A stretch of 64,000 nt of DNA, taken from assembly GCF_000158175.1 (NCBI RefSeq), contig NZ_DS999411.1:93951-157950 (forward strand), written 5' to 3'. Below are positions 13,443-32,158 of the stretch, piece after piece. Source of the stretch: Luminiphilus syltensis NOR5-1B. GTDB taxonomy: Bacteria; Pseudomonadota; Gammaproteobacteria; Pseudomonadales; Halieaceae. Below the pieces are notes generated by a model. It saw only the letters and a program-made list of their open reading frames with translations, was not told the origin of the DNA and ran no database searches. The stretch's first letter is position 1; the number at the start of each line of letters is the position of its first letter. Made by a program: the position numbers and the translations under genes.

Positions 13443-13835
13443 ATGGCGTTGCCCGATGAGGACATCCAGCATATCGAATCGGCAGATCTAGTTTCTACTG
13501 GAGTAATCTATGATGGCGTTCTGTATTTTTCAGGGCTGACCGACGAGAGTACTGATAATCACAACCACGACGCCTACGAACAAACTCGTATCATTCTCGA
13601 CAACGTAGACCGATACCTGAAGCTCTATGGCTCAAACCGTCGCCGCCTGCTACAGGTGCAGATCTGGCTCGCCGATATGAGCGATTTCAACACCATGAAC
13701 CGCGCGTGGGTCGAATGGCTGGGGAACAGCCCAAGGCCGGCACGCGCGTGCGTCCAAGCAGGCCTAGCGGGCCCACAGTATCGTGTTGAGGTAATGGTAA
13801 CCGCCGCTATTGAGCAAGATCATTGTACGCCGTAG
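13443..13835 (+). CDS. RidA family protein
   Basis: A 130-residue member of the RidA/YER057c/UK114 family, which as trimers hydrolyse reactive enamine/imine intermediates or act on related small amides. The family pattern is present: VSTGVIYDGVLYFSGLT at the N-terminus, a long helix (ARIILDNVD-like region at about 50-60), LLQVQIWLADMSDFNTMNRAW, and the C-terminal PARACVQAGL with the conserved Arg. A GGAG site lies 7 bp upstream. It is followed by a deacylase gene after 105 bp, and a chimeric remnant of a second copy lies at 30.3 kb. Its presence suggests a deamination or N-dealkylation step nearby (inference). Confidence 0.88.
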   Translation: MALPDEDIQHIESADLVSTGVIYDGVLYFSGLTDESTDNHNHDAYEQTRIILDNVDRYLKLYGSNRRRLLQVQIWLADMSDFNTMNRAWVEWLGNSPRPARACVQAGLAGPQYRVEVMVTAAIEQDHCTP

Positions 13836-13940
13836 CCTCTTTTCTGGACACGACAAGGAAAGAGGGTTCCCACGAATCCATCGATCCGAAATCATCGGAA
13901 CACTAGCCGCGGCTGCTAATACAAAAAGGAAGACGCCAAA

Positions 13941-14957
13941 ATGACCTTTTCTCCCATTTGGACCGACATCGACTGGGACCACCGCGGTAGGCAGGATTCC
14001 TTTCTGTGTATGGAACACGCAGATATTGGGTTGGATATTATCCAGATTCCTATTTCCGTCCTCAACAACGGTAGCGGTCCTACGGTGCTGCTCTTGGGCG
14101 GTGTCCATGGTGATGAATACGAAGGGCCAGTGGCTTTGACCAGACTTCTGGCCGAGATCGACCTCGAGCGGCTGAGCGGCAGACTTATTGTTATGCCGGC
14201 CGTAAACCTCCCAGCCGTACTGGCTGGGACACGTTCATCACCGCTCGATGGCGGTAATCTCAATCGTTCTTTTAGTCCAACGGCCACCGATTCGCCGACA
14301 GTCCGAATCGCGCGATATCTGAGCGACGTGATATTCCCGCTGTGTGACTACTGTTTTGACAGCCACACAGCCGGCAGCTGCGCAAATCACTACCCCGCCG
14401 CCTATGTGTCTCTTACCGGCGATCGAGCTAAAGACATGGCAGCCCTGGACACCTTGGAATACATCAATTCACCGCTGTCTTGGGGTCAGCCAGTCCTTGA
14501 CGGGCCATTCTCAGAATGGGTGGCGGTTGAACATGGAGTGACCTACTTCGGCAGCGAAATGGGTGGCTGCTCCCATCTGCAGTCAAACATGCTGTGGCAC
14601 TCCGAGCGGGCGATTTACCGCTTGCTCGATCACATTAAAGTTCTACCCCTGGACGAGCAGTGGTCCGGCACGCTGGAGTCGCGTTGGATCACCGGAACAC
14701 AGGGCGGTATGATTTATGCGCCAAACAACGGTGTGCTGCTCGCCATGCACGAACCGGGAAACAACGTCCGATCCGGCGACCTCGCGGGTCTCATCTATAC
14801 GCCTGAGATCCCCTCCCAGGCACCCTTGGAGCTCCACTATCCGAAGGACGGAATTCTGACCGCAACTGCCACTACCGGGCGCGTTAAGCGAGGTAGCCTC
14901 ACACATTGGATTATGGATGAATCAAGCAAGGAAGCGCTCCTGGCGAGCGCATCTTGA
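13941..14957 (+). CDS. aspartoacylase/succinylglutamate desuccinylase family deacylase
   Basis: A zinc-dependent amidohydrolase-type deacylase of 338 residues. The metal and catalytic residues are visible: H56 and E59 in GGVHGDEYEG, H142 in FDSHTAG, the substrate-binding N108-R109 in GGNLNRSF, and E206 in FGSEMGG. A C-terminal beta domain starts at about residue 245. Relatives include ectoine-pathway DoeB and AstE; they remove an acyl group from an amino acid. No ectoine hydrolase or doeC/doeD is nearby, so DoeB is not claimed. The gene's TGA overlaps the TTG that begins the BCCT remnant, mirroring the ATGA junction at 30629 in the second module. Confidence 0.88.
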   Translation: MTFSPIWTDIDWDHRGRQDSFLCMEHADIGLDIIQIPISVLNNGSGPTVLLLGGVHGDEYEGPVALTRLLAEIDLERLSGRLIVMPAVNLPAVLAGTRSSPLDGGNLNRSFSPTATDSPTVRIARYLSDVIFPLCDYCFDSHTAGSCANHYPAAYVSLTGDRAKDMAALDTLEYINSPLSWGQPVLDGPFSEWVAVEHGVTYFGSEMGGCSHLQSNMLWHSERAIYRLLDHIKVLPLDEQWSGTLESRWITGTQGGMIYAPNNGVLLAMHEPGNNVRSGDLAGLIYTPEIPSQAPLELHYPKDGILTATATTGRVKRGSLTHWIMDESSKEALLASAS

Positions 14958-15335: not shown

Positions 15336-15349
15336 AGCGCAGCGCTTCT

Positions 15350-16021
15350 TCAATGGGTCTCGGCAAGCACTTGGCTAAATGATTTACCATCGCGCAGTGC
15401 TTGACGCATGACGACGTCAGACTCAACGTCGGCGTTAAGCATTTCCTGGACCTCCGCGCTATATGAATTCGGTACTACCACACACCCATCGCCATCGCCC
15501 AGCACAATGTCATTGGTCTCGACCAACGTTCCGGCACAAATAACTGGCATATCTACAGAGACAATCCTCGCCCTTTTAATGAAACTCAAAGGAGAAAATC
15601 CAGAGCAGAACACCTGATAGCCGATACCTCGGATACCCTGCGAATCTCTGATCCAGCCGTCCGTTACCCAGCCTGGCGAACCGCGCATCTGAGCGGCGGT
15701 AGCAATAATCTCGCCGATAATCGTGTACCGATTGGGCCACCCACAGGCCACGACCGGCACATCACCAGGCTGCAGGGACTCAATAAATGCAATCAAGCGC
15801 TCCATTAGCTCATCGTAATCCTGAGCCGTCTCACCCGGAGCGAATTGCATAGTCCGGGCTCGCCCAACAAGCACACCGCTCCCGTCCAGAGCGCGTACAG
15901 TTGGATCAAGCACCTGACCACTTTTCCCGAGGCGATCCAACGCGTCAGCAGCAGCGGGTGTCTCGGCGTTCGTCCAACCTTCCATTCCGCCCGCTAAGGG
16001 TGTCTTCCTCTCATCTGTCAT
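15350..16021 (-). CDS. RraA-like protein (4-hydroxy-4-methyl-2-oxoglutarate aldolase family)
   Basis: A 223-residue member of the RraA/dimethylmenaquinone-methyltransferase-like fold. Family marks are the N-terminal AADALDRLGKSGQVLDP, the central GEIIATAAQMRGSPGWVTDG followed by WIRDSQGI (substrate/metal G-x-A and RD residues), and the C-terminal DIVLGDGDGCVVVP. Members outside the RNase E inhibitors are divalent-metal aldolases or decarboxylases of 2-oxo acids. It lies 120 bp downstream of the Rieske oxygenase on the same strand and probably shares its promoter, which suggests cleavage of an oxidised product (inference). Confidence 0.85.
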   Translation of the reverse strand: MTDERKTPLAGGMEGWTNAETPAAADALDRLGKSGQVLDPTVRALDGSGVLVGRARTMQFAPGETAQDYDELMERLIAFIESLQPGDVPVVACGWPNRYTIIGEIIATAAQMRGSPGWVTDGWIRDSQGIRGIGYQVFCSGFSPLSFIKRARIVSVDMPVICAGTLVETNDIVLGDGDGCVVVPNSYSAEVQEMLNADVESDVVMRQALRDGKSFSQVLAETH

Positions 16022-16141
16022 ACTAGTACCATTCCCGCGTGTGTATTGCTTGTTTTAGTTGGAGCTCTAAAATTGTACCAATACGACCTTGCCTTCGTCG
16101 CAACGATGAAAAAGCCAACCAGCCAATGAAGTTCGAAACAA

Positions 16142-17260
16142 TTAGGCCAACGCCGCCTTGTAGGCATTCCATGTGTAGGCAAGCATGCGTACCGAGTGTT
16201 CTTCACGCTTGTATACGAACTGGAAACCTCCGACGTTGGTACGCAAGTTGCGCTGCTGCTTTTCTGCGGCTTCACCGTCTTCGTTAAAGGTTTGCTTGTA
16301 AAGGTCAACCCAACGATTGAACCGATCTTCCGGAACCCCTTTGTCGATGAAATAGTGCTGGCGCACGCAGCAGGACTCCGGGCCCGTGGGAATAACCTGA
16401 AGCACCAACATCAGATCGTTCTGCTGAACGATTGAACACCCGGGAAAAAAATGCAGAACCAACTGATCACCACCGCTTAGGTCATCGCTATTCTCCGGCT
16501 CAAAACCCTTGTAGTGCGAGATTGTCATTCTGTCCGTATAGCGAAGACTGTAATCGCCGTCTTTGGTGGCGAATGCCTTAGAAAGGGACTCGCTGTGTAA
16601 AGTTAAGCAGTGGTAGCATTCGTAATTATTATCCTGCCAGAGCTTCCAGTTTGAGCCCTGATTTACTTCCAACCCTACTCGATACGTGTACCGGTCCGAA
16701 CTATCATCAAGCCCCTCCTCGGCAACCCACTGCGTCATATGCGGGTGTGTGACACGCAGTGGCGCGGCATTCGGGTCAGGATTGACAAAAACCAGGGAGC
16801 CCCAGGTGTCGACGGCAACGGGGAAAAGGGAAGAGTCCGACTTATCGAAATGCGTCTCGGACTCCGTGTCCGGTGCCCCTACCAGATTACCCGTAAGATC
16901 GTAAGACCACGAATGATAGGCACAACGCAGCACTCGACAACGGCTTTGCTCCTTCTCGACCACAGGATAACCGCGGTGACGGCAAATATTTAGAAAACCG
17001 TGCAGTTCGCCGTCCTTAGCGCGGGTCACGACGACCGATGAATTCCCGACTAAACCTGCAACAACATCACCCTCAGTCGATAACTGGTCCAGCGGCGCAA
17101 AGTATTGCCATGAATTGGAGAAAATCGCTTTCGCCTCGAACTCATACACATTGGGGTCATAATAGGTGTGCGGCGGTAGACCGCGGTTGCGCTGCAGCGC
17201 GTCCTCTACCTCCGCCACATCAATCCCCAAATCCTCCGCCCGAGTAGCTTTGCCTGTCAT
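16142..17260 (-). CDS. Rieske non-haem iron oxygenase, carnitine/betaine monooxygenase-like
   Basis: A 372-residue oxygenase component. The Rieske 2Fe-2S ligands are C93, H95, C113 and H116 (ICRHRG and CAYHSW). The mononuclear iron ligands are H217 and H222 in NYECYHCLTLH, with a C-terminal acidic ligand in NEDGEAAEKQQRNL. The bridging residue before the first His is E214, three residues upstream. Carnitine monooxygenase CntA uses Glu at this spot, whereas most Rieske oxygenases use Asp. Relatives demethylate or split quaternary ammonium compounds. I chose the ATG at 17260 because AGGAG lies 9 bp upstream; the frame is open to 17302. No reductase gene is in the window. A perfect dyad lies 56 bp upstream. 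Confidence 0.88.
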   Translation of the reverse strand: MTGKATRAEDLGIDVAEVEDALQRNRGLPPHTYYDPNVYEFEAKAIFSNSWQYFAPLDQLSTEGDVVAGLVGNSSVVVTRAKDGELHGFLNICRHRGYPVVEKEQSRCRVLRCAYHSWSYDLTGNLVGAPDTESETHFDKSDSSLFPVAVDTWGSLVFVNPDPNAAPLRVTHPHMTQWVAEEGLDDSSDRYTYRVGLEVNQGSNWKLWQDNNYECYHCLTLHSESLSKAFATKDGDYSLRYTDRMTISHYKGFEPENSDDLSGGDQLVLHFFPGCSIVQQNDLMLVLQVIPTGPESCCVRQHYFIDKGVPEDRFNRWVDLYKQTFNEDGEAAEKQQRNLRTNVGGFQFVYKREEHSVRMLAYTWNAYKAALA

Positions 17261-17315
17261 GTGCTCTTCTCCTAAATCCCTTGACGCAATTGATGGTAGC
17301 AAAGGACGCCAACAT

Positions 17316-17343
17316 AGTGAATATAAAAATGCATATATTCACT
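17316..17343. promoter_or_regulatory. 28-bp dyad operator candidate, site 3 of 5 (Rieske/XRE divergent region)
   Basis: AGTGAATATA at 17316-17325 and TATATTCACT at 17334-17343 make a perfect 10-bp inverted repeat with an 8-base centre, the strongest of the five sites. Counted as half-sites it is AGTGAA-N16-TTCACT. It lies 56 bp upstream of the Rieske ATG and 200 bp from the divergent XRE-cupin gene. A lone AGTGAA half-site follows at 17381. Autoregulation by the XRE-cupin protein is plausible but unproven. Confidence 0.7.
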
Positions 17344-17543
17344 TTTGTTTTTACCGAACAACAAATCTAAGACCGATAGCAGTGAATTTTTTAAAGCGCC
17401 GGGGCAATTAAGTTGAATTTCCTCACGGATTGGGTCACCGTTGGCGCTAAATGGAGCGAGGACTGCTCGAAAAGGGGCCAAACACGGCGTCGAACTCACA
17501 GTAAAGCTATAACGCCAGAATCACAGAAGGAGCTTTGAGTAGC

Positions 17544-18203
17544 ATGTCCGAGAAGCAGTCTCTTCCACGCATCTTGCGCCCGTCAAATTCCAAAGGTATC
17601 GCGGATGCGGGCGACTGGGTGGATGCCAACAAACTAGCGAAAACAGACCGCTCGCTCGGCCTTGATATCCGTGATCTGCGGAAGGCGCGCGGCATGACAC
17701 TGTCTGAACTGAGCAAGATCTCCGAGTTGTCCCAGGGCTATCTGAGCCAGGTCGAGCGGGGAATTTCTGTGCCTTCCATTAAGGCGCTGCATTCAATCAG
17801 TCGGGCACTGGGCGTTACGATCAGCTGGTTTTTTCAGAATCAGGTAACAGGGGAAGATCCGGCCATGCGAGCTTGGGTCGTCCGTAGTGGCAATCGCAGG
17901 AAACTGACCTTTAATACTGGCATCGTAGACGAGTTGCTCTCCCCGAATCTCAGCCGGCAAATCGAGATGCTCAAGTGTACCTTTCCACCCGGCACTTCCA
18001 GTGGCGATGTCCCCTACACGCATCAGGGAGAAGAAGCGGGTATCATCCTGAGCGGGAAGCTGAATCTGTGGATCGAGGACACACACATCGTGCTCGAAGA
18101 GGGGGACAGCTTTGCTTTTGCCAGCAGCAAATCCCATCGCTACGCCAATCTCGAGGATGTCGAAACCGTGGTGATCTGGACGATCACACCTCCAAGTTAT
18201 TAG
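17544..18203 (+). CDS. XRE family regulator with C-terminal cupin domain
   Basis: A 219-residue protein. Residues about 40-95 form an XRE helix-turn-helix (IRDLRKARGMTLSELSKISE then LSQGYLSQVERGISVPS). Residues about 135-215 form a cupin_2 sensor (CTFPPGTSSG, HQGEEAGIILSGKLNLWIED). This architecture is common in regulators of amine, polyamine and amino-acid catabolism that bind the inducer in the cupin. Start choice: AAGGAG at 17527-17532 is 11 bp before the ATG at 17544; a TTG at 17535 would sit only 2 bp away. It is divergent from the Rieske gene across the perfect dyad and is my best candidate for the shared regulator. Confidence 0.88.
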   Translation: MSEKQSLPRILRPSNSKGIADAGDWVDANKLAKTDRSLGLDIRDLRKARGMTLSELSKISELSQGYLSQVERGISVPSIKALHSISRALGVTISWFFQNQVTGEDPAMRAWVVRSGNRRKLTFNTGIVDELLSPNLSRQIEMLKCTFPPGTSSGDVPYTHQGEEAGIILSGKLNLWIEDTHIVLEEGDSFAFASSKSHRYANLEDVETVVIWTITPPSY

Positions 18204-18281
18204 ACGTTCCGGGCGGAGAATTTACGCTAGAGGCGTCACAGCCGCGCTGCCTCCTAGAAGAGTCCATTGCGTTCCTTGCGG

Positions 18282-18302
18282 TGACCTCACGCTGACAGGT
18301 CA
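18282..18302. terminator. weak inverted repeat after the XRE-cupin gene
   Basis: TGACCT (18282-18287) and AGGTCA (18297-18302) form a 6-bp stem with a 9-base loop, followed by GCCTCTTTGTTTTC. It lies between convergent genes (XRE-cupin and the aldehyde dehydrogenase), where a terminator is expected. The T tract is poor, so this is a weak call. The rest of 18204-18491 shows nothing else. Confidence 0.25.
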
Positions 18303-18491: not shown

Positions 18492-19955
18492 TCAAGAATC
18501 TATACCGCCAACGCAGAGATACTGAATATCCAGATACTCCTCGATACCGTAACGTGATCCTTCGCGACCGAAGCCAGACTGCTTTACACCTCCAAAAGGC
18601 GCTGTTTCGTTCGCGATGAGTCCTGTATTAATACCCACCATACCGTACTCGAGTGCATTACCCACGCGCCACAGACGCGCCATATCACGGGAATAAAAAT
18701 AAGCGGCAAGCCCGTATTCGGTCGCATTTGCCATCGCAATGGCTTCTTCTTCATTACGGAAAGTGGCGATTGAAGCGATAGGCCCAAAGATTTCCTCTCG
18801 GCTCAGCGCCATATCCGGGGTCACATCTGTTATCACCGTGGGCTGAAAGAAGGTGCCTCCCATGGCATGGAGCTTTCCACCGCAGAGTAGACGGGCCCCT
18901 CGGTCCGTAGCATCAAGGATCATTGACTCCATTTTCGCTAGCGCCTGGGCGTCGATGAGCGGGCCCTGTTCGACAGACTCCTCGCAGCCGTGCCCGACTC
19001 GCAAGGCTTCCGCTGCTTTCGCCATTCGGGCCGCAAATGCCTGCGCCACTTGTTCGTGAACCAGAAATCGATTGACACAAATACAGGTCTGGCCCGAATT
19101 GCGATATTTGGCCGCCAGGGCACCCTGCACTGCGGCATCGAGATCGGCGTCCTCAAAAACGATAAAGGGGGCATTGCCACCAAGCTCCATCGACAGTCGC
19201 TTCAGCGTCGGTGCACACTGTTCCATCAGCAACCTTCCTGTCTTTGTCGAGCCTGTAAAAGAGAGCTTGCGGACATTGGGGTCCCCGGTGAGAACGCCTC
19301 CTATAGCGACGGGATCACCAGTCACAATGTTCAAAACACCCGCAGGAAGACCTGCCTGCTCCGCGAGTGCCCCCAGGGCAAGCGCCGAGAGCGGCGTCTG
19401 CTCTGCCGGCTTGACGACGATGGTACAGCCAGCGGCGAGTGCGGGCGCAACCTTGCGAGTCACCATAGCCGAAGGAAAATTCCATGGCGTTATTGCCGCA
19501 CAAACACCCACAGGCTGCTTACAGACAACAAGGCGCTGATCTGTCGACGGCGCCGGAATGGTTTCTCCATAAACTCGTCGTCCCTCCTCGGCAAACCAAT
19601 CAATGAACGAAGCGGCAGAGGCCACCTCCGCACGCGCCTCAGCGATTGGCTTGCCCTGCTCCAGTGTCAGAATTTGCGCGAGGTCTTCGCGCGCAGCCAT
19701 CACCAAGTCGTACCAACGGCGCAAGATCTGCCCGCGGTCCTTCGCGGAGCACGTGCGCCAGGACCGCAGCGCTGCTGCGGCCGCATCAACGGCATCGCGT
19801 GCATCACGGTCGTCTCCTTGGGGCACCTGCGCCACCTTTTTACCGGTTGCAGGATCACAGACAGCGGTAGCGGCTCCGCCGTGAGCCGAGCGCCAGGCGC
19901 CATTGACAAGCATGCGCTCCCTAAGAAGCGATTTATCCTTTAGCGGGGGTATCAT
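18492..19955 (-). CDS. NAD(P)-dependent succinate-semialdehyde dehydrogenase-like aldehyde dehydrogenase
   Basis: A 487-residue aldehyde dehydrogenase closest in pattern to GabD-type enzymes. Cofactor-binding TPWNFPSAMVTRKVAPALAA is at about 157-176, the general base is E257 in MELGGNAPFIVFEDADLD, and the nucleophile is C291 in RNSGQTCICVNR. The C-terminal PFGGVKQSGFGREGSRYGIE fits the same subfamily. It oxidises an omega-semialdehyde (succinate, glutarate or malate semialdehyde) to the acid. It lies 283 bp downstream of a second aldehyde dehydrogenase on the same strand. A product such as malic semialdehyde from carnitine-type cleavage would suit it, but that is inference. No shared dyad lies directly upstream. 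Confidence 0.88.
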   Translation of the reverse strand: MIPPLKDKSLLRERMLVNGAWRSAHGGAATAVCDPATGKKVAQVPQGDDRDARDAVDAAAAALRSWRTCSAKDRGQILRRWYDLVMAAREDLAQILTLEQGKPIAEARAEVASAASFIDWFAEEGRRVYGETIPAPSTDQRLVVCKQPVGVCAAITPWNFPSAMVTRKVAPALAAGCTIVVKPAEQTPLSALALGALAEQAGLPAGVLNIVTGDPVAIGGVLTGDPNVRKLSFTGSTKTGRLLMEQCAPTLKRLSMELGGNAPFIVFEDADLDAAVQGALAAKYRNSGQTCICVNRFLVHEQVAQAFAARMAKAAEALRVGHGCEESVEQGPLIDAQALAKMESMILDATDRGARLLCGGKLHAMGGTFFQPTVITDVTPDMALSREEIFGPIASIATFRNEEEAIAMANATEYGLAAYFYSRDMARLWRVGNALEYGMVGINTGLIANETAPFGGVKQSGFGREGSRYGIEEYLDIQYLCVGGIDS

Positions 19956-20237
19956 GGCGCACGCGCCCTCCAGTTTCGAACAACAGTTCGGCCATTATTG
20001 ACTCCTCTGAGTCCAGTCTTGGTTTAAGTCGACGTAAAGGTTTAGCGATGTCGCACTTGGTTTATCTTCTTTCCCAAAAAACACATTACCTGACCGCCGC
20101 GGCTGGAAAACAACAAAATCTCGACCGCCCATTGCAGTAAAGACCCGCGACAGCGCCGTTTAGGCAACCGTAGCTATGGGGCTCGCTAGACCGGACAGCG
20201 ACAAAAGAGAGCCCGGGGCCAGCTCGAGAAAAGGTAA

Positions 20238-21728
20238 TCAGTAGGGAAACCACCAATCTGGTATTGGACCGGACTTCGGGTCCGGGTCGATCCAGGCCAA
20301 CTTGTTCTTGGTAAAGCTGTGCAGGCCATCGATCCCCAGTACACGTCCGCCACCCGTGGATTTATTGCCACCGAATGGACCTGCATCGTTGTCGAATAGG
20401 GGCGCGTTTACCCAGACCATCCCAGACTCCAGGCGCCTGATCGACTCATGGACCTCAGCCAAGTCCTGACTGTAAACGTTGCTACCGAGCGCGAGAGGAC
20501 TATCGTTGGCAAGGCGAATGGCCTCGTCCAGGCTCGATACTTTAGTCACCGCCACCGCGGGTCCGAATATTTCATTGCGCATTATTGACATCTGGTGTGA
20601 AGCGTTAGCGAGGACTGTTGGACGATAAAACCAGCCTCGCTCAAAACCATCAGGGCGAGCCCCTCCGGCTACCAGTTCCGCCCCCTCGCTCACTGCGGTC
20701 TTTACCACCTCCGCTACTCTTTCGACCTCGCGACGATTCGCCATGGGGCCGACATCCGTGGTCTGCTCCATGCCGTCTCCTATCCTGAGTCCCGACGCGC
20801 CCACTGCGAGCCGCTCCACGAATTCAGTGTAGATGCTCTCGTGAACATACATTCGCTCTGTAGAGGTGCAGATTTGCCCGCAGTTCATGAATGACGCGAA
20901 AGTCGCAGCGCGCACAGCAAATTCCATGTCGCAACTGGGCATCACAATAAATGGATCGCTGCCCGAGGCTTCTAACAAACAGCGCTTGAATTGGCTCGCA
21001 CACATTTCGTTGATGGCACGGGCGCCGTTTACGCTGCCCGTGAAGGATACGATGTGGGTGTTGGGGCTCTTCACAAGGGCCTGCACGGTCGGAACTGATC
21101 CAGTTACTACTTGCACCAGCCCCGGAGCGACCGCTTCCACTACCTCAGCCATCCGCAATGTCGTAATCGATGCATATTCCGATGGCTTCACGATCACCGT
21201 GTTTCCTGTGGCGAGGGCGGCGGCCATGCTCCACGCCATCAGCACAGCCGGATAGTTATAGGGTAAAATTATGACGGCCACGCCGAGCGGCTCCCGATAC
21301 GAGTAGTTTAAGTGGTTTGCCACGACCGGGCCGTGAACTCGTCCGTACTCATGCCGCGCGATCTCGGCAAAATAACGAAACGCGGTGACCGTCCAGCCGA
21401 CTTCGTCGCACGCCTCCTTGATCGGCTTGCCCATTTCACGGGTCATCATCTCCCCAAGATGGGGTACGTTTTCTTCGAACGCAGACGCGATTTTGTGAAG
21501 TACCTTAGTCCTGTCCAGAGAGCTCTCTGCCGCCCATACTCTTTGGCGCTCGTTGGCAATGTTGATGCACCGCTCAACCTCGTCGGCAGTTGCACCGGCA
21601 AGTCCACACAAACGTTCCTCCGTTACGGGGGAAGCGACTTCGATCTCATCGGGACTGGCACCGTCTATCGTCTGTCCGTCGATAAATAACTTACCGCTCA
21701 ATCTTTCAAATTCATTACTAGTGGTCAT
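20238..21728 (-). CDS. aldehyde dehydrogenase family protein
   Basis: A 496-residue NAD(P)-dependent aldehyde dehydrogenase. The nucleophile is C287 in MNCGQICTSTERMYVHES. The general base E253 lies in the unusual string LEASGSDPFIV, where most relatives have LELGGSDPFIV. The start is the ATG at 21728 because GAGGGA lies 7 bp upstream; the frame is open to 21776. A copy of the 28-bp dyad lies 93 bp upstream, so it seems to belong to the same regulon as the Rieske gene. Substrate unknown; lactaldehyde-, succinate-semialdehyde- and aromatic-aldehyde enzymes are all near relatives. Confidence 0.87.
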   Translation of the reverse strand: MTTSNEFERLSGKLFIDGQTIDGASPDEIEVASPVTEERLCGLAGATADEVERCINIANERQRVWAAESSLDRTKVLHKIASAFEENVPHLGEMMTREMGKPIKEACDEVGWTVTAFRYFAEIARHEYGRVHGPVVANHLNYSYREPLGVAVIILPYNYPAVLMAWSMAAALATGNTVIVKPSEYASITTLRMAEVVEAVAPGLVQVVTGSVPTVQALVKSPNTHIVSFTGSVNGARAINEMCASQFKRCLLEASGSDPFIVMPSCDMEFAVRAATFASFMNCGQICTSTERMYVHESIYTEFVERLAVGASGLRIGDGMEQTTDVGPMANRREVERVAEVVKTAVSEGAELVAGGARPDGFERGWFYRPTVLANASHQMSIMRNEIFGPAVAVTKVSSLDEAIRLANDSPLALGSNVYSQDLAEVHESIRRLESGMVWVNAPLFDNDAGPFGGNKSTGGGRVLGIDGLHSFTKNKLAWIDPDPKSGPIPDWWFPY

Positions 21729-21820
21729 AGCAGTCCCTCGGAAAAATGATAGGGCGTCGGGTAAAAACGAGCTCACGGAGTAAATTTACAAACAACCATA
21801 ACGACACATTTATTCACGAC

Positions 21821-21848
21821 TGTGTATTTATTATTGTTATTATTCACT
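21821..21848. promoter_or_regulatory. 28-bp dyad operator candidate, site 4 of 5 (aldehyde dehydrogenase)
   Basis: TGTGTA at 21821-21826 and TTCACT at 21843-21848 are separated by 16 AT-rich bases. The right half is perfect and the left half matches AGTGAA at four of six positions. It lies 93 bp upstream of the aldehyde dehydrogenase start. Taken alone it would be unconvincing; the fixed spacing shared with the other four sites supports it. Confidence 0.5.
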
Positions 21849-22281: not shown

Positions 22282-24282
22282 CTAGTTCTCCGCGACCTCA
22301 GAATGATGAGCCTCTATCGCCGGCTGAAGGATCCTTATGAGGTCACCCAGGAAAGGTTCGAAGGAACGCCAGGCATTGAGTCCGGAATGATAGATCGGTT
22401 GGCGAACCTGTTCGGAACTGGCGGTGCGCACGGCACGCTGCTGCGCGTGATACTCGAGACAGGACTCTTCGAAGGGCAGACCACAATATTCAAGGACACG
22501 GCGCAGTTCGCCCTCGAGGTCCCCAACCAACGCTTCATAGTTAACGCGCAAGACCCTGCCCGGAAGCACTGCATCCCAGTGCGCCATGATGTCGAGGTAA
22601 CTAAGATAGTAGTTCCCGATGTCTTCGAAGCTATAACTGAATTCCTGACCCTCGGCAAAAAATTGCTTGTAATTGCTGAAGCAACACGCTGTAGGATGGC
22701 GTCGTATGTCAATAATTTTGGAATTTGGCAGCATCAAGTGTATAAGCCCGACGTGTCGAAAGTTATTGGGCATTTTATCAATGAAGTAAGGTGCTGAAGT
22801 CTGTCGCTGCTGAGCGGCGGACTCCAGATAATGCTCACCGAGTCTCGCAAACTCATCGGCCGCCATCTTTACAACATTGTCGGGATAGGCGACATCACCA
22901 ACGCCCCGCGACAGCTCATGTACAATTCCGGGTATGTGTGCCAATTCCTTGGTTCCCTCAACCTGTGAATGTGCCGACAGGATCTGTTCGAGGAGTGTGG
23001 AACCGGAACGCGGTAAGCCGACGATAAAGATCGGCGCATCGTTAGCAGAACCACTGCCGGCGAGCCGCTCGAAAAGCCCAGGCGCGTAGACATCCCGGCA
23101 GGCGCGCATGCCATTCTCGAATTTCTCCGCTGAAAAGCGGCTTTGCCTGCGGCGCAGAGCATTTCCCCGGTCGTAGTGTTGAAAGGCCTTTTCGAAACGT
23201 TCCGCGTCTTCGTGGGCTTTGCCCAGGGAAAAACTCAGATGGATCCTGTCAGTATCGCGCAGCCCCGGGTTCGCTAGCGCTTCTTCCATTGCCGCTACCT
23301 CGTCCGGCGTAAAACGGTAGGTCTTGAGGTTCGCGAGGCTCCAGTACGCGTCGCCAAAGTCGCGGCGCAGTTCGTAGGCGCGGCGATATCGGGCGATGGC
23401 ATCATCGCTCTGACCCACGGTTTTCAGTGCATGTCCGATAGCGACTTGAAAAGTCTCATCGGACTGCAGGCGTGGCTCAATACGACGATAGTCCTGCAAC
23501 GCCTCCGTATAGCGACCCGTCGCCGTGCGCAGATGCCCGCGCAGCAGCAGCGCGGCGAGGTGTTCGGGTTGCAGGGTCAGAAGCCTACTCAGTTCACTGG
23601 CCACGCGCTGGTAGCGATGTCTCTTGAACAGCACCCCAGCGTATTCCATGCGCGCTTCGAGATTATCCGGCTCGACCTCAAGGGCACTCTCGAGTAGATA
23701 CTCGGCATCGTCATAGACCTGACGCTCAACCCCGATTGCTGCCAGCAGGCGCATTGCGGAGACATCCAAGGGATTTGCTCGGAGGTACTCGCGGCAGATG
23801 ACTTCGGCGCGGTCCATATCGCGCTCCGCAAGTGCGTGCCTTGCGCGCCGTAGAGGCACCGGCATACCGTCTAGTTCCGTTAGCTGAGCGCTTGCCCGCG
23901 CACTGAGCACATCATCACCAAGCTGAACGGCGAGGCGGAGCACCGACTGCCAGGCTGCGCGCAGCGTCGGATTACGTCTGACGGCCTCAAGGTAGCAATC
24001 CAGCGCGGCATGGGGCTGTTCTCCACGATCACGAGACAAATGCCCCCGCTCCTGTAGTGCCAGCGTAAAATTGGGAAACCGGTGTTGCAACTCATGAAGC
24101 CGTACAAGCGCCTCTTCATAGGAGCGCTGTAGGCGCAACGCTACCGCTGACAGATACCAGCCCTCGGCATTCCCCTCATCGCCCAACCGCACTTCCTCAG
24201 CCGAAGCGTAGGCAGCGGCAAAGTCGCCGGCTCGTAGACGCTCCTTTGCTTTGCTGAGCTGTTCGGATGCAGTTTGCGTCAT
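22282..24282 (-). CDS. tetratricopeptide repeat sulfotransferase
   Basis: A 666-residue protein. The N-terminal 380 residues are tandem TPR helices (for example AEGWYLSAVALRLQRSYEEA and ALLLRGHLRTATGRYTEALQ). The C-terminal 260 residues are a sulfotransferase domain with the PAPS 5'-phosphosulfate loop IVGLPRSGSTLLEQILSAH and the 3'-phosphate site DIRRHPTACCFSNYKQFF. It should transfer sulfate from PAPS to a hydroxyl or amine acceptor in the cytoplasm, with the TPR part binding partner or substrate. It follows the FMN hydroxyacid dehydrogenase by 20 bp on the same strand, so the two are probably cotranscribed. The acceptor is unknown. Confidence 0.85.
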   Translation of the reverse strand: MTQTASEQLSKAKERLRAGDFAAAYASAEEVRLGDEGNAEGWYLSAVALRLQRSYEEALVRLHELQHRFPNFTLALQERGHLSRDRGEQPHAALDCYLEAVRRNPTLRAAWQSVLRLAVQLGDDVLSARASAQLTELDGMPVPLRRARHALAERDMDRAEVICREYLRANPLDVSAMRLLAAIGVERQVYDDAEYLLESALEVEPDNLEARMEYAGVLFKRHRYQRVASELSRLLTLQPEHLAALLLRGHLRTATGRYTEALQDYRRIEPRLQSDETFQVAIGHALKTVGQSDDAIARYRRAYELRRDFGDAYWSLANLKTYRFTPDEVAAMEEALANPGLRDTDRIHLSFSLGKAHEDAERFEKAFQHYDRGNALRRRQSRFSAEKFENGMRACRDVYAPGLFERLAGSGSANDAPIFIVGLPRSGSTLLEQILSAHSQVEGTKELAHIPGIVHELSRGVGDVAYPDNVVKMAADEFARLGEHYLESAAQQRQTSAPYFIDKMPNNFRHVGLIHLMLPNSKIIDIRRHPTACCFSNYKQFFAEGQEFSYSFEDIGNYYLSYLDIMAHWDAVLPGRVLRVNYEALVGDLEGELRRVLEYCGLPFEESCLEYHAQQRAVRTASSEQVRQPIYHSGLNAWRSFEPFLGDLIRILQPAIEAHHSEVAEN

Positions 24283-24302
24283 CAGGAAACTCCGCTGCGA
24301 TA

Positions 24303-25940: not shown

Positions 25941-27647
25941 CTAGCGGGGTAAATCGGAAAACCGTTCTTGCCTCTCCACAAAAGGCGGCCTCCAGTCCGT
26001 GAAAGTACTCTCAAAGTCTTCATTGTAATCCCAGTACATCATCAAAGCCTTGGCGGTGCCGCCCCTCCAGGGGTCGTACTTCTCGTTACTGAACTCAGAA
26101 AAGAAATCGGTAAGCCGACCATCGAGCCACACCAGCGTCGCCGCCTTATCGGGGTCATTGATGATGTTGTGACGTTCTCCAGGGTCAGACGCAAGGTGGT
26201 AAAGTTCTGATGGCTGGCCAAAGATCCGCTTAACGTACTTCCACTCGGAGGTTACGATGGCTCGGGTGGTAATGTATTCGAAATACGCAGCATCGTCCCA
26301 CTCCGGTGACTCGCCGCGCAGCAGTGGTGCGAAACTTCGCCCCGGACTGTTGGCGATTTCTATATCTCCAAGACCAGCCAGCTCCAACACCGTTGGGAAA
26401 ATATCGACCTGATTGATGATGTTCGCTGAGGTTTCAGGCCCTTCAGCGACCCTCGGGTCGTTAACAATGAGGGGCACCTGCAAATGCTCTCTTTGAGCAG
26501 TGAAAGGGCTCGCTGCTGAACTGTTGCCCCACAAACCATGCTGACCGAATGCAGCACCCTGGTCTGCAGTAAAAACGATAACGGTGTTCTCATTCAGGCC
26601 CTTCTTTTGTAAAGCCTCCGCCACGGCAGCGACGCCGTCATCAATCATGGTCACTTGTGACGCCAGGTTGATCATTGCTTCGTTGTTATTAAGCGCGTGG
26701 ATAGTCTGCCACGCGTAGGAAAATTCGATCTTCGCCCCCAGATCACCGAGTTCCATCGGGTCCTCAATCAGCCAATCCCTATTTGCGGCCTGCTCAACAA
26801 GGATGTGATCCCCGCTGCTTGCCTCAATCGCGTAATTGCGCAGAAAGGGGTGCACGGGTTCCTGTGGAAAGCTGGGTACGTGCCTCCGATAATAGTCCGC
26901 GTGGCGATTATCCGGCTTGCGGGTGACTACTGGCGCGAGGCCATAGGGGCCATTATAGGCAAGGTACAGGAAGAAAGGAGCATTGGAATCCTGCTCCTCA
27001 ATGAAATCCACCGCACGCCGTGTCCAGAAATCTGTCAAATGCTCATCTTTTACACGGTATCGCTGTCCGTTGTCGATTACCTCAAGGTCATAAAACGTGG
27101 TCGTGTGTCCCGAGGGCAGCACGACCCAGTAGTCGAAACCGATTTGCGGCGAGTCCGGAACGCCAAGATGGTATTTTCCAATCATCGCAGTTCGGTAACC
27201 CGCTTCGGACAGCGTTTGGGGCATGCTGCGAAACTCTTCGATGGCTGAGTAGTCTTCCAGATCGAAGACACTCGGCAAACCGTTATGGACACCATGCTGC
27301 GACGGCATTAGTCCGGTCAACAAGGACGCGCGCGTCGGTGAGCAAACGCCGCTTGCGGCGAACGCTCGGGTGAAGCGCGTGCCCTGTGAGGCAAGGGCGT
27401 CAATATTTGGTGTCCTGACATCCTCATTCCCATAGACACCTAACAGCTTGTCGCTCTGGTTGTCCGTTACGATGAGAATGATATTCGGCCGGTCATCGGC
27501 AACGCCTATCGGACTAATCAGCGCCAGAGAAAGTGCTGCAATGCATCTCCACACTCGGTTGATTATTCCGCCGACGGCTCTGCGCGAGTCCCGAGCCCCC
27601 GGCTTGTAATGAGCGCTCTCCCGAAACACGGTGACCTCATCAATCAA
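25941..27647 (-). CDS. secreted sulfatase (formylglycine type)
   Basis: A 568-residue type I sulfatase. C102 in VCSPTRASLLTG is the cysteine that is converted to formylglycine (C-x-P-x-R). A metal-binding pair lies in VTDNQSD (D62, N63; most relatives have DD), and a second site in VIVFTADQGAAFGQHGLWG. Residues about 31-50 form a hydrophobic signal segment ending GVADD, so it is exported, although the N-terminal 30 residues are unusually long. The ATG at 27647 overlaps the TGA of the TonB receptor gene (ATGA), which supports this start and indicates coupled translation. It hydrolyses a sulfate ester outside the cytoplasm. Choline-O-sulfate-type or carbohydrate substrates cannot be told apart. 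Confidence 0.85.
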   Translation of the reverse strand: MIDEVTVFRESAHYKPGARDSRRAVGGIINRVWRCIAALSLALISPIGVADDRPNIILIVTDNQSDKLLGVYGNEDVRTPNIDALASQGTRFTRAFAASGVCSPTRASLLTGLMPSQHGVHNGLPSVFDLEDYSAIEEFRSMPQTLSEAGYRTAMIGKYHLGVPDSPQIGFDYWVVLPSGHTTTFYDLEVIDNGQRYRVKDEHLTDFWTRRAVDFIEEQDSNAPFFLYLAYNGPYGLAPVVTRKPDNRHADYYRRHVPSFPQEPVHPFLRNYAIEASSGDHILVEQAANRDWLIEDPMELGDLGAKIEFSYAWQTIHALNNNEAMINLASQVTMIDDGVAAVAEALQKKGLNENTVIVFTADQGAAFGQHGLWGNSSAASPFTAQREHLQVPLIVNDPRVAEGPETSANIINQVDIFPTVLELAGLGDIEIANSPGRSFAPLLRGESPEWDDAAYFEYITTRAIVTSEWKYVKRIFGQPSELYHLASDPGERHNIINDPDKAATLVWLDGRLTDFFSEFSNEKYDPWRGGTAKALMMYWDYNEDFESTFTDWRPPFVERQERFSDLPR

Positions 27648-30037
27648 AAGTCGTACATAATGCGCGCGCCGATAGTTCGAGGACGGTTCGTAGTAATTCG
27701 CCGGTTATAATCAAAGTCGTTGATAAACAGTTCGGCACGCTCATCCGTAAGGTTGGTCGCGAACAGTTCGACTTGCCATTGACCGGAAATCACACCGGCA
27801 GCTGCGTTCACCAGCGTATACGCATCCATCGTCTGGACTGGACCCGTTACCGTGTCGAGCAGTGCGTTTTCCTGCTCGCCCGTATACGCTGCGGTTCCCT
27901 GAAAATACCCGGTCAGCGATTCCGTAAATGGCGCTTCATAGCGCAGCGTCAAGTTGCCAGAGAACTCTGGCGCAAACGGCAGCGGAGTCCCCTTTTCCGC
28001 GACGAAAACGTCGCTGACGCCGGGGGCTTCGAAGTCACTTGTGAGTTCAGCATTCAGCCAAGAGTAGGCACCTGTTAGGGTCAATGCCTCGCTTACGGCG
28101 AATGCGAAGTCCCCTTCTATGCCATAGATCTCAGCATCGGCTGTGTTCGTCATGAATGCAAAAGCTGAAACCTGCGAGTCGCTAAAGGTTTGCTGCAAAT
28201 CTCCCCATTCCATGAAATATGCCGCGCCGTTGAACTGAAAACGCTGATCCAAAAAGGAAAGCTTCCATCCCAGTTCATAGTTGTCGAGAATATCGGGCTC
28301 GAATCCTTCGGGGATAACCACGCCTTGCCCGGCAGGACCTGACACACGATTGAAGAAACCGGGCCGGAAGCCCTGTGAAAACGTCGCGTAGTAGAGTGAA
28401 TCCTCGGTAGGCGTGAAACTGACCGAAAGTTTGTAAATTTCATCCCTGTCGGTACGAGACTTATCCAGAGGCGGACCGCTCGGGCCGAACTGACCACCGA
28501 CATTCCCACCCAGGCCGGAATCAATGTCAAACCAGCGCACACCGCCTGTAACTGCAAGCAGGTCTTCTATCACCTGGAAGGTGACTTCACCGAACAGCGC
28601 AAGCTGTTCTTCGGTGCGATCAGTATTGATCAGGAATGTACTGCCAAGCTGCCCAAGCACCCCGCCCCCGCCATCTGCGATCGCGACATCGCTGAACCCA
28701 GGGTTATTGTCCCCGGCAATGGCAAAGACGTCATTCAGCAGCCAGCTCGCTTTATTCTCCACATCAGAATCCTGATAGAAGACCCCGGCAACCGCTGATA
28801 GTCGACGATCAGAAGACGTCGACACACGCAATTCATGGGTTACACGATCTTCACGAACAGACCCTTGAGAGTAGTAGTCCTGCTGTGAGCAGGAAGCCAT
28901 CACCTCGCCAGGTATAATCAAGTCTGAATAACTGGAGTTATAGCTGCACGTGTAGAAATCCATAAACGGACCCGCCTGCCCGTAGCCGGTGTAGTCAGTG
29001 GCGAAGTCGGTCTCCCTGTCGAGAAACGAGCCCGCATAGAGCACATCAAGCGATCCAACGCGGCCTTCTACAGTCAGGCTATACTGCTGGAATTCATCTT
29101 CGGACCGGTCGTCGTTAAAGCGTCTAACTGACAGCTCACCGAGGCGATCCTCATAATCAAATACTCCGTCTGTCTCAAGGGTTTGGCCAATTACGGCGCC
29201 TTCAACAGACCAATCGTCCGAGATATTGTAAAGACCAGACAGCCTGTATCCGACCTTGCTGACATCATTGAAGTCATCCCCGGCATACGCAGTGTTGGGC
29301 CCCTGAGTCAGGGTGTACCCAGGTCCAATCGTGACCGGGTGGTCATTTGTGCCGAACTCGTTATCGATATAACCCCCGTCCTGGAGGTTGTAGACGACGG
29401 CGCGTATCGCCGCTCGATCAGAGATCGGCACGTTGATAAAACCCTGCGTCAGGTTGTTAAGCTCTCCGTCCTTGGTGGAGGACAGCCGCCCCTCAAATCC
29501 GCCGTCGAATCCGGTGGGATCCGGCTTATTGGTAATGATACGCAAGGCGCCGGCCATGGAACTGGAGCCGAAAAGCGTGCCCTGAGGACCACTCAGCACC
29601 TCGATACGCGCAACGTCGTAAATGTGCACATCGAGATTCCGGTTGATTGTGGTCACCGGCTGTTCGTCCAAATATATGGCTACCGTCGGGACGCTGCCAG
29701 ACTGGTTGGCAATCTCCCGCTGGTTAGCTGCGGCCACGCCGCGCATATACACATTGGACGCACCAGGCCCCTTGGAGGCAAACGAAACGTTCGGGAGAAG
29801 TTGTACGTAATCGTCGAAGTTCGCAATATTTTGATCGGAAAGTGTCGATTCCGTCAGTACGTTAAGAGAGATCGGCGTGTCCTGCAGCGAAGATTCGCGC
29901 TTCTGGGCTGTGACCACAACTTCCTCGAGTTTCTGGGCGTGCACCGCATTGGCACCTCCACCCGCTACTCCCGCCGCTAACGTTGCGCTAATTGCAAGCC
30001 TGACGTGCGAGCTCAAACGATTCTTCTCAATTATCAT
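27644..30037 (-). CDS. TonB-dependent outer-membrane receptor
   Basis: A 797-residue receptor. The signal peptide runs to about residue 34 (ATLAAGVAGGGANAVHA), followed by a TonB box (EEVVVTAQKRESS), a plug domain (about 45-170; VARIEVLSGPQGTLFGSSSM) and a beta-barrel ending in the typical aromatic C-terminus (RTIGARIMYDF). It should import a ligand across the outer membrane with TonB energy. It is coupled to a sulfatase by an ATGA overlap and divergent from the BCCT module, with a 28-bp dyad between them. This context suggests an organic substrate rather than iron (inference). No Fur-like box is seen in its upstream region. Confidence 0.9.
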   Translation of the reverse strand: MIIEKNRLSSHVRLAISATLAAGVAGGGANAVHAQKLEEVVVTAQKRESSLQDTPISLNVLTESTLSDQNIANFDDYVQLLPNVSFASKGPGASNVYMRGVAAANQREIANQSGSVPTVAIYLDEQPVTTINRNLDVHIYDVARIEVLSGPQGTLFGSSSMAGALRIITNKPDPTGFDGGFEGRLSSTKDGELNNLTQGFINVPISDRAAIRAVVYNLQDGGYIDNEFGTNDHPVTIGPGYTLTQGPNTAYAGDDFNDVSKVGYRLSGLYNISDDWSVEGAVIGQTLETDGVFDYEDRLGELSVRRFNDDRSEDEFQQYSLTVEGRVGSLDVLYAGSFLDRETDFATDYTGYGQAGPFMDFYTCSYNSSYSDLIIPGEVMASCSQQDYYSQGSVREDRVTHELRVSTSSDRRLSAVAGVFYQDSDVENKASWLLNDVFAIAGDNNPGFSDVAIADGGGGVLGQLGSTFLINTDRTEEQLALFGEVTFQVIEDLLAVTGGVRWFDIDSGLGGNVGGQFGPSGPPLDKSRTDRDEIYKLSVSFTPTEDSLYYATFSQGFRPGFFNRVSGPAGQGVVIPEGFEPDILDNYELGWKLSFLDQRFQFNGAAYFMEWGDLQQTFSDSQVSAFAFMTNTADAEIYGIEGDFAFAVSEALTLTGAYSWLNAELTSDFEAPGVSDVFVAEKGTPLPFAPEFSGNLTLRYEAPFTESLTGYFQGTAAYTGEQENALLDTVTGPVQTMDAYTLVNAAAGVISGQWQVELFATNLTDERAELFINDFDYNRRITTNRPRTIGARIMYDF

Positions 30038-30201
30038 TCCGTTGTCTCCTTGAGCGACTACCTTTGGGGCTTAGTCTTGTGAGTCTTGTGTTTTGGTACC
30101 TACAGGATTAGCGCGTATTCACGCAACCGAATTGCTTTAATCCATACTTTGCATGATCGTATGGCACACATTTAATAATAGTCAAGGCTGATTATCATAT
30201 T

Positions 30202-30229
30202 AGTGTGTTTTTTTGTTTATTTATTCACT
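30202..30229. promoter_or_regulatory. 28-bp dyad operator candidate, site 5 of 5 (TonB receptor/BCCT divergent region)
   Basis: AGTGTG at 30202-30207 and TTCACT at 30224-30229 with a 16-base T-rich spacer. The right half is perfect; the left half matches four of six positions. It lies 165 bp upstream of the TonB receptor and 106 bp upstream of the chimeric RidA/deacylase remnant that precedes BCCT, so it could serve both directions. Confidence 0.5.
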
Positions 30230-30335
30230 TTTTAGTAATAGGGTGCATGAATCAGGGATGTGTACTCACAGGCGTAGCGCACCTCGATTGTGAACGCGCC
30301 GAAGCAAGAAAACTCGGATGGGGAGCAATGAGCGC

Positions 30336-30632
30336 ATGACACATTACGACCAACAGATACGGCACGTCGCCTCAGGTGAACTCGCCTTCAGCGCCGTTCC
30401 ACATGCCGAAATTATCGATCTGCCAGGGCTTACCGACGCAAGTACTGGCGTTAATAACGCAAATGAGCACACCTTTTTGATCCACACTCCGGAAATGTCA
30501 TCGCAAGCGCCGATAGAGCTTCGAGGCGCCGTCGAGGATATCCTTACGGAGAACGCCACGATCGGGCGTGTTAAGCGCAGGGATCTCAGGCTTGAATCAT
30601 CGAGGAAGGCATTGCTTGTGGGCGCCACATGA
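30336..30632 (+). pseudogene. chimeric remnant: RidA N-terminus fused to deacylase C-terminus (module 2)
   Basis: A 98-codon open frame with two origins. Residues 1 to about 42 align without gaps to the RidA protein at 13443: IRHVASGELAFSAVPHA against IQHIESADLVSTGVIYD, and LPGLTDAST against FSGLTDEST. Residues from about 44 to the end align to the last 55 residues of the deacylase at 13941: HTPEMSSQAPIELRGAVEDI against YTPEIPSQAPLELHYPKDGI, then IGRVKR against TGRVKR and SSRKALL against SSKEALL. So a deletion removed the rest of both genes and joined them in frame. The TGA overlaps the BCCT ATG. It is unlikely to be an enzyme but may still be translated and feed ribosomes to BCCT. Confidence 0.8.
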
Positions 30633-32158
30633 TGAACATCAAAAACGTACAACCTAGAGTTTTCAACCCGGCCTTCGTGCCGATCGCGGTCACTGCCGTG
30701 CTGATTACGGCGATGGCACTCATTGCCCCCGACACGATGACCGCTGCAGCGCGGAGTTTCAGCACGCGCTTCATGGCCCGCTGGGATGTGGTGTACGTAA
30801 ACACGTTTAGCATTCTCGTGGTTGCCGTATTTGCTATTGCATTTTCGCCTCTGGGCCGGATAAGAATCGGTGGCGCAGACGCCGTCACAGAGTTCTCGCG
30901 AACAACGTGGATTGGAATGATTTTCAGCGGCGCGATGGGCGGCAGTCTGATCGGCTTCAGTGTGTACCAACCCCTGGAGCATCTCCAACACGTGCGGCTA
31001 CTCTTCGAGGGCGGCGCGAACGAGCAGGCAACCGCGAATGCGCTAGCCATCTATATGTGGGGCTTTCACGGCTGGGGGCCCTGGAGTCTCCTTGCTGCCG
31101 CGTTCGCCTACGCCAGTTACAACCGCAGCGACGCCTTCGGCTTCAAGGGCATTGCCGATGTGGTGATACCTGCCCCGTATCCGAAGTCCCGAACTTTCCT
31201 CGCCGGTATCAGCGACTACGCTGGCATCGTGTCATGCTGGTTCAGCAGTTCCGTGGGTCTGGCACTGATAACTCAACAGGTCGCCGGTGGACTGATTGAT
31301 AGCTTTCAACTCGGTGCAACCACAAAAGTGTTTGCGCCCATCGTCTCGGTGGTTATGGCGGCCTGTTTTGTCGCCGTAGCGCTGACCGGCCTGAAATCCG
31401 GCATCGGACGACTCAGCCGCTACAACTTCATACTTGCGCACCTGTTCCTCGCAACCGTGTTCCTGCTGTGTAACCCCATTGAATTACTTTGGGGCCTGGT
31501 TTCTTCCGTCGTCGCCTACGGCAAACTCCTATTCACGCTCCCTTTCATTCTGACAGGCGCACAAGATGAAGCAGTGAGGGCGTTCCGGCTGGTCTGGCCC
31601 GCGTCTTACATGCTCTGGTGGCTGGGCATGAGCGTAATCATTAGCGCCTACTTCGCCAAAATTAGCTACGGACGAACTGTCCGCGAGGTTCTGCTGGTCA
31701 TCACGGTAGTCCCCACGGCGCTGATCACCATTTGGTTTGGGGTCATGGGTAATGCTGCAGCCGCAATCCTCGAGCAGGCGCCACAGCTGTTCGAGGATCT
31801 CAGCGCGTCTCAGGCGGTGTACACCTTCTTGCATCAACTGCCCGCAGGCGATGCATTTGCAGGGTTTGTACTTCTGCTATCGGCACTATTTTTAATCACA
31901 ACAGGCGCGCCAATGATCTACGTGCTTGCAGAATTCATGTACGAATCGGTCACAACGCCTTCCCGGGGTACGATACTCCTTTGGGGCGTTGCCCTGGGAA
32001 CGACCGTAACCGTGGTGTCAGCCCAATCCGGCATCACTGCCATGCAGGAACTCGCGATCTCCGTGTCGATCCCCTTTTCATTCGTGTACCTGGCACTGAT
32101 GATCTTGTTTCTCGCCAGGAGCGCAGTGGATCGCCTCCGGCGACGTTCAGAAGAGTAG
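30629..32158 (+). CDS. BCCT family transporter (betaine/carnitine/choline type)
   Basis: A 509-residue inner-membrane protein with about 12 hydrophobic segments. Family marks are GMIFSGAMGGSLIGFSVYQP (the glycine-rich third helix), IYMWGFHGWGPWSLLAAAFA, and the Trp-rich WWLGMSVIISAYFAKISYGR followed by TVREV. BCCT carriers bring quaternary ammonium compounds and some sulfonium compounds in with Na+ or H+. The ATG overlaps the TGA of the chimeric remnant (ATGATGA). A decayed homologue follows the other RidA-deacylase pair at 14954, so this is the only intact BCCT gene of the two modules. The long C-terminal tail of osmosensing BCCTs is absent (it ends RSAVDRLRRRSEE), which fits catabolic uptake. 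Confidence 0.92.
   Translation: MMNIKNVQPRVFNPAFVPIAVTAVLITAMALIAPDTMTAAARSFSTRFMARWDVVYVNTFSILVVAVFAIAFSPLGRIRIGGADAVTEFSRTTWIGMIFSGAMGGSLIGFSVYQPLEHLQHVRLLFEGGANEQATANALAIYMWGFHGWGPWSLLAAAFAYASYNRSDAFGFKGIADVVIPAPYPKSRTFLAGISDYAGIVSCWFSSSVGLALITQQVAGGLIDSFQLGATTKVFAPIVSVVMAACFVAVALTGLKSGIGRLSRYNFILAHLFLATVFLLCNPIELLWGLVSSVVAYGKLLFTLPFILTGAQDEAVRAFRLVWPASYMLWWLGMSVIISAYFAKISYGRTVREVLLVITVVPTALITIWFGVMGNAAAAILEQAPQLFEDLSASQAVYTFLHQLPAGDAFAGFVLLLSALFLITTGAPMIYVLAEFMYESVTTPSRGTILLWGVALGTTVTVVSAQSGITAMQELAISVSIPFSFVYLALMILFLARSAVDRLRRRSEE

Follow-up and report, generated by a model that had tools for sequence, protein, structure and literature searches.

Two diverged copies of a putative RidA-deacylase-BCCT operon with complementary losses in Luminiphilus syltensis

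Duplication-degeneration-complementation, or reciprocal gene loss, is a general model in which each of two copies retains the parts missing from its partner. We studied what appears to be such a case in a window of 64 kb from the one-contig, 3.26-Mb genome of Luminiphilus syltensis NOR5-1B, in which genes for a RidA-family protein, an N-acyl deacylase and a BCCT transporter occur twice in the same order. Each copy keeps what the other lost, as in the general model; here the units would be whole operons, each behind an operator-like site of its own, and one of the relics would be an in-frame leader. Among the closest described systems is the lower nicotine pathway of pAO1, in which MABO, FolD, PurU and SsaDH form a demethylation route for methylaminobutyrate, as described in PMC6214936. 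The window shares with it a demethylating oxidase, FolD, PurU and a succinate-semialdehyde dehydrogenase, and additionally holds a Rieske oxygenase, RidA, a DoeB-like deacylase and a BCCT. In Colwellia psychrerythraea 34H, a 37-kb glycine-betaine/sarcosine catabolic island is duplicated and was acquired by horizontal transfer, according to the abstract of PMC3691474. Duplicated compatible-solute catabolism genes are common to both loci, whereas the complementary decay seen here is not mentioned in that abstract. The matches listed by a literature search on complementary decay of bacterial operons contained no case, and none of those on two of the three terms RidA, succinylglutamate desuccinylase and BCCT concerned this gene set by title.

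An earlier note on this DNA had described the order RidA, deacylase, BCCT twice on the plus strand, with intact enzymes and a transporter remnant in copy 1 and an intact transporter preceded by a short fused frame in copy 2. All of this held, down to the four pieces, stop, frame changes and two large deletions of the remnant and the 98 codons of the fusion, and relic scores, panel comparisons and tblastx confirmed what appear to be two diverged copies of one three-gene operon for uptake and breakdown, each without the parts that its partner retained. In copy 1, the RidA gene (13443-13835, plus strand) is intact (Pfam Ribonuc_L-PSP, E = 1.2e-21, 77.3 bits for a cut-off of 27.3), with 3gtz as closest solved relative (E = 1.1e-22). 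The deacylase gene (13941-14957, plus strand) is intact as well and belongs to the AstE/AspA superfamily, both by its Pfam match (AstE_AspA_cat, E = 8.4e-30, 104.2 bits for a cut-off of 25) and by its aligned motifs. With DoeB, the ectoine-pathway deacetylase (6twl), it shares the sequence family, the HGDE motif and the later His and Glu, which we take to be the zinc and catalytic motifs. It differs from DoeB in reaching only 181.7 bits with the NCBIfam model (TIGR02994), under the equivalog cut-off of 402.7, and in having no ectoine-pathway gene among the neighbours scanned.

The BCCT relic of copy 1 (14954 to ~15316, plus strand) consists of four pieces, which correspond to residues 17-45, 262-287, 456-473 and 477-504 of the copy 2 BCCT. 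Their scores were equalled or exceeded by 7 of 500, 0 of 1000, 3 of 500 and 0 of 500 shuffled pieces, respectively, and piece 2 read in the wrong frame gave no signal (186 of 500 shuffles as high). The reading frame of the relic changes three times, its last piece contains one in-frame stop, and two deletions span ~210 and ~170 codons. Frameshift-aware alignment of its 3' end with the BCCT scored 71, and no shuffle exceeded 42 (n = 15). A Pfam scan of three of the four pieces returned no BCCT match. The identity of relic and fusion was established with the partner copy and the panels described below, families beyond the panels being compared through Pfam alone.

In copy 2, the beginning of RidA is joined in frame to the end of the deacylase (30336-30632, plus strand), as alignment to copy 1 shows; the reading frame of this fusion is open from 30318. 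The N-terminal part corresponds to RidA residues 5-51 (17 of 45 aligned residues identical; score 66, shuffles at most 36, n = 20) and the C-terminal part to deacylase residues 284-338 (29 of 51 identical; score 112, shuffles at most 47, n = 20). A Pfam scan of the fusion found no RidA or deacylase match. The BCCT that follows (30629-32158, plus strand) is uninterrupted: it covers positions 4-479 of the 485 of the Pfam profile with 271 bits for a cut-off of 27 (E = 2e-80) and matches BetP-type structures (E = 3.4e-35), while the five NCBIfam BCCT models that match it all score under their own cut-offs. Direct reading bore out that the stop of the preceding frame overlaps the BCCT start in both copies (TTGATAA at 14954 in copy 1, ATGATGA at 30629 in copy 2). 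A second BCCT of this genome, at C1:1865282, lies 1.7 Mb away and is 24% identical to that of copy 2, whose Pfam score is half that of this second transporter. About 130 bp behind the copy 2 BCCT, a transposase relic was observed at 32291-32407 (HTH_Tnp_1, E = 1.4e-6, a 39-residue piece read past one stop); a second relic resembling an insertion sequence, suspected near 22.0 kb, was unsupported on checking.

We then compared every relic part with panels of 34 BCCTs, 132 deacylases and 10 RidAs. The panels were built from the loci collected up to that point, were freed of identical proteins and contained the partner copy. The partner copy ranks first for every relic read in the right frame. The scores of partner and runner-up are 67 and 35 for the N-terminal and 115 and 61 for the C-terminal part of the fusion, and 44 and 39, 52 and 40, 35 and 32, and 65 and 40 for BCCT pieces 1 to 4. 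Pieces 1 and 3 lead narrowly, and they are weak when taken alone because wrong relic frames score up to 41 against other BCCTs; the proposed sister relation is carried by pieces 2 and 4 together with both fusion parts. Moreover, tblastx of 12.9-18.3 kb against 25.9-36.0 kb gave a collinear chain (E = 1.6e-13), in which four of six rows follow the common order, another maps to the same place on the opposite strand, and the off-order sixth looks like chance. The sequences behind the two BCCT genes show no similarity. Between the fusion parts and copy 1, the proportion of differing silent sites (pS) is 0.85 and 0.81, i.e. saturated, for a proportion of differing amino-acid sites (pN) of 0.34 and 0.30; the short BCCT end gives 0.70 and 0.35. 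Since silent sites are saturated and amino-acid sites conserved, the copies diverged for long under constraint and decayed afterwards, which supports the view of the earlier note that they already differed before decay.

The regions upstream of both copies were aligned, and a single AT-rich block stood out (0 of 300 shuffles as good with loose scoring, 1 of 300 with strict scoring). This block, which had escaped the earlier note, is a 26-bp site close to GTGAA-N16-TTCAC, or in its longer form GTGAATA-N12-TATTCAC. It lies at 13359-13384 before copy 1 (1 mismatch to the longer form; 1 of 3000 shuffles as good) and at 30203-30228 before copy 2, where the left half is degenerate and the site is the weakest of five (3 mismatches; 47 of 3000 shuffles as good). 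The three others are a perfect inverted repeat at 17317-17342, between a Rieske gene on the minus strand and a gene for a helix-turn-helix (HTH)-cupin regulator on the plus strand (0 of 3000 shuffles), a site at 21822-21847 before an aldehyde dehydrogenase gene (20238-21776, minus strand; 2 mismatches, 4 of 3000 shuffles as good), and an exact GTGAA-N16-TTCAC at 6611-6636 before a dimethylglycine-dehydrogenase-like/PurU/FolD operon on the minus strand. With a weight matrix trained on any four of the sites, and these four excluded from the ranking, the fifth comes out on top of the 63,975 window positions; 12 is the one gap at which the promoters of copy 1, copy 2 and the dehydrogenase are all best together. 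The strong sites are confined to one 24-kb stretch, and the interval from the dehydrogenase site to that of copy 2 contains no further place within 3 mismatches of GTGAATA-N12-TATTCAC. In the whole genome, a degenerate pattern derived from the five sites occurs with at most 3 mismatches at three places away from the locus, and the reversed control pattern has 5 matches. As the operator-like site is shared, the single set split over 17 kb that the earlier note had proposed is likely to form one regulon, and its two halves may still be induced jointly.

The regulator at 17535-18203 (plus strand; Pfam HTH_3 and Cupin_2) is the proposed binder, and it is predicted that it probably recognises all five sites. 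Its nearest plasmid relatives (55-57% identity), in Phaeobacter and Pseudosulfitobacter, adjoin PurU, FolD, succinate-semialdehyde dehydrogenase, 4-aminobutyrate transaminase and an FAD oxidoreductase. We examined 28 loci of regulator relatives (8 of 105 plasmid records and 20 of the further places listed) and found the site within 500 bp upstream exactly in 5 and with at most 1 mismatch in 7. All 6 loci associated with both PurU and FolD carry it, 5 exactly and 1 with one mismatch, while the control pool of 1,220,987 positions contains 1 exact site and 60 with at most one mismatch. The shared site was found both before the putative members and near relatives of the regulator, the copy 2 site being weak. 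Among these loci, the shortest tree path from the regulator of the window leads to the roseobacter pair, without strong support. By title, no match listed in the literature concerned a cupin regulator of dimethylglycine, FolD and PurU genes, and PMC13390433, on trimethylamine regulation, makes no mention of cupin, XRE, binding site, palindrome or consensus.

On two roseobacter plasmids (L183 at 15789 and 18614; L184 at 15733 and 16880), the 26-bp site was also seen between electron-transfer flavoprotein and regulator genes, and before a run of hydantoinase, ABC-transporter and FAD-oxidoreductase genes. This suggests an N-methylhydantoin or creatinine-like regulon, the substrate being a guess.

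The fusion of copy 2 probably persists as a translational leader. A Shine-Dalgarno sequence is present before RidA, the deacylase and ATG 30336 of the fusion (not ATG 30318), the fusion keeping GGAG as RidA does, and neither BCCT start has a Shine-Dalgarno of at least 4 bases in the preceding 22 bases. As the BCCT start overlaps the preceding stop and has no such sequence of its own, translation of the BCCT should need ribosomes that finish the preceding frame; the fusion would most likely have been kept because the transporter, with no visible ribosome site, is translated by coupling to that stop. The transporter would survive a deletion that takes out most of RidA and the deacylase as long as start, frame and stop stay in place. 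By count, the BCCT relic has ~4 lesions in some 360 bases and the fusion 0 in 294. For equal decay times, this contrast has a chance of ~0.04 by a Poisson estimate, but it means little if the deletion is the younger.

Close relatives of the modules were searched for in other genomes. For the deacylase, the best match is 30% identical in the 56 other genomes of the genus; 22 of the 57 genus genomes, own included, match it at E 1e-15 or better, the rest having distant relatives, and many of the assemblies are incomplete. The best outside match is 35% identical in an order-wide sample (n = 293) and 41% in a phylum-wide sample (n = 398), and in a pattern scan of 84,980 species genomes the closest ten, among the best 80 of at least 535 confirmed relatives, are 36-44% identical. 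The ten neighbour proteins scanned at four of these ten loci include no BCCT or RidA. They are three GntR regulators (L077, L079, L081), a peptide-type binding protein (L077), two beta-eliminating lyases (L077, L085), a major-facilitator transporter, an epimerase and two proteins without a match; the regulators, the binding protein and the lyases are apparently a different module around the same deacylase subfamily. The best-scoring relative of the copy 2 BCCT in 58 genomes, own included, is 31% identical, short fragments reaching 34%, and nothing closer occurs in 349 phylum and 244 order genomes (overlapping samples), so that this transporter would form an isolated lineage in the samples searched.

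Several observations weigh against the reading of two diverged operons joined in one regulon. None of the 212 fetched loci outside this genome has all three genes (BCCT alone in 38, deacylase alone in 132, RidA alone in 10, RidA with deacylase in 2, and none of the three in 30), and no intact ancestral operon is known from them. At many of them the flanking sequence is limited to ~1.5 kb, and certain genomes are counted twice, so that the count is no proof of absence; the claim that each copy lost what its partner kept, which stands on the other tests, is not refuted by it because no close relative of either module turned up. The copy 2 site never comes under 3 mismatches, is equalled at gaps of 5, 9, 10, 13 and 21 instead of 12, and with 2 mismatches to GTGAA-N16-TTCAC is one of 23 such places in the window. 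For the promoters of copy 1 and of the dehydrogenase, one alternative gap does as well (21 and 24, respectively). The genome-wide degenerate pattern was drawn from the five sites themselves, and their AT-rich middle raises the matrix scores. The looser first pattern has three further exact places in the genome, which were left out as members: one is inside a long open reading frame (ORF), one in DNA that has no ORF reaching 120 aa, and the third ~45 bp before a 193-aa ORF of unassigned function. The remaining 22 regulator loci yielded no exact site and a single site with one mismatch; three of these loci are from the same order, their regulators being 53-55% identical. The six positive loci represent two plasmid lineages (the roseobacter pair and four rhizobial ones) rather than six independent cases. 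Finally, the fusion may be open merely from a recent deletion.

These points leave room for other explanations. The enzymes of copy 1 and the BCCT of copy 2 might serve different substrates, their complementary losses being chance. The shared parts are alike at the distant level given above, the second BCCT could serve copy 1, and the weak copy 2 site gives little to oppose it; yet a similar site precedes both copies, the strong sites sit within one short stretch and the other transporter is remote in both sequence and position, and we find this account unlikely. Still less credit can be given to the idea that the similarity of the sites reflects general promoter composition without a common regulator. 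All five are AT-rich, which helps the matrix scores, and the copy 2 site taken by itself is unremarkable, but the leave-one-out ranking of each site and the recurrence of the same site near regulator relatives in all PurU-FolD loci of other genera speak against it. The origin of the copies is more evenly balanced. Copy 2 might have come by transfer or movement of an insertion sequence independently of copy 1, i.e. by two acquisitions, which the saturated silent divergence, the low identity of the deacylase within the genus and the transposase relic right behind copy 2 would favour. On the other hand, each module has its closest panel match in the other, and we give both histories about the same weight. 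As for the 98-codon fusion, it could be a young pseudogene without a role, open by chance: one deletion in three would be in frame by chance and a recent one needs no lesions, and the pN of the BCCT relic end is hardly above that of the fusion parts, so that decay may be recent in both. That the copy 1 relic, of similar length, has gathered frame changes and a stop, and that the BCCT has no Shine-Dalgarno of its own, argues otherwise; this alternative is possible, though we do not favour it.

The explanation that we prefer, and consider reasonably probable as a whole, is that two homologous RidA-deacylase-BCCT operons, already strongly diverged, each stood behind a similar operator-like site. 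Copy 1 would have lost its transporter, and copy 2 its enzymes, by what may have been a single in-frame deletion that kept the RidA start, the deacylase end and the stop/start overlap, so that the fused leader stayed coupled to the transporter. The surviving enzymes of copy 1 and the surviving transporter of copy 2 would then make one set, both halves keeping the 26-bp site that also precedes the dimethylglycine-dehydrogenase-like operon, the Rieske oxygenase and the aldehyde dehydrogenase. Judging from protein families, the regulon would take up an N-methylated, possibly N-acylated, amine through the BCCT; deacylation would follow, methyl groups would pass onto folate and the carbon chain would be oxidised through semialdehydes. 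Its strictest form, degeneration complementary at the level of operons, which become halves of one regulon while the deleted cistrons are kept as in-frame leader for the coupled transporter, remains doubtful and is offered tentatively.

The neighbouring genes were assigned to families. On the minus strand, a dimethylglycine-dehydrogenase-like FAD/GcvT fusion (4097-6550; dimethylglycine dehydrogenase in PDB, E = 8.7e-149) is followed downstream by PurU (3172-4047) and then FolD (2286-3134), both over the cut-offs of their NCBIfam models; by analogy, these three would form a demethylation set of the nicotine-pathway kind. Also on the minus strand, downstream of the palindromic site, an RraA-like gene and the Rieske oxygenase gene, kin to carnitine/glycine-betaine monooxygenases, occupy 15350-17302, and two aldehyde dehydrogenase genes occupy 18492-21776, the first of which (18492-19955) is a succinate-semialdehyde dehydrogenase (NCBIfam SSADH, 694 bits for a cut-off of 646). 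For the Rieske protein, a carnitine monooxygenase (E = 5e-30), a ring-hydroxylating oxygenase (E = 1.8e-28) and a demethylase (E = 1.9e-28) are matches of about the same quality, and we therefore name no substrate. Homarine, carnitine and ectoine were dropped as named substrates, and no matching gene set was found among the literature matches listed for homarine. The genes most likely fit a route that imports an N-methylated, perhaps acylated, amine and degrades it step by step, and the best reading of the five putative sites is a methylated-amine regulon whose transporter and enzymes lie in two half-decayed operons.

Such a locus would provide a concrete bacterial case in which homologous operons have come to share out one function through losses, control elements being kept on both halves, and it exposes a candidate methylated-amine regulon made of the site and the HTH-cupin regulator. 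As the site recurs on roseobacter and rhizobial plasmids, the pairing of regulator and site is directly testable. It also calls for caution in annotation: a small, fused ORF annotated as hypothetical and preceding a coupled gene may be a working leader and not a gene. Between the two copies, genes named from their translations alone are TPR/sulfotransferase-like (22282-24282), sulfatase-like (25941-27647) and TonB-receptor-like (27644-30037).

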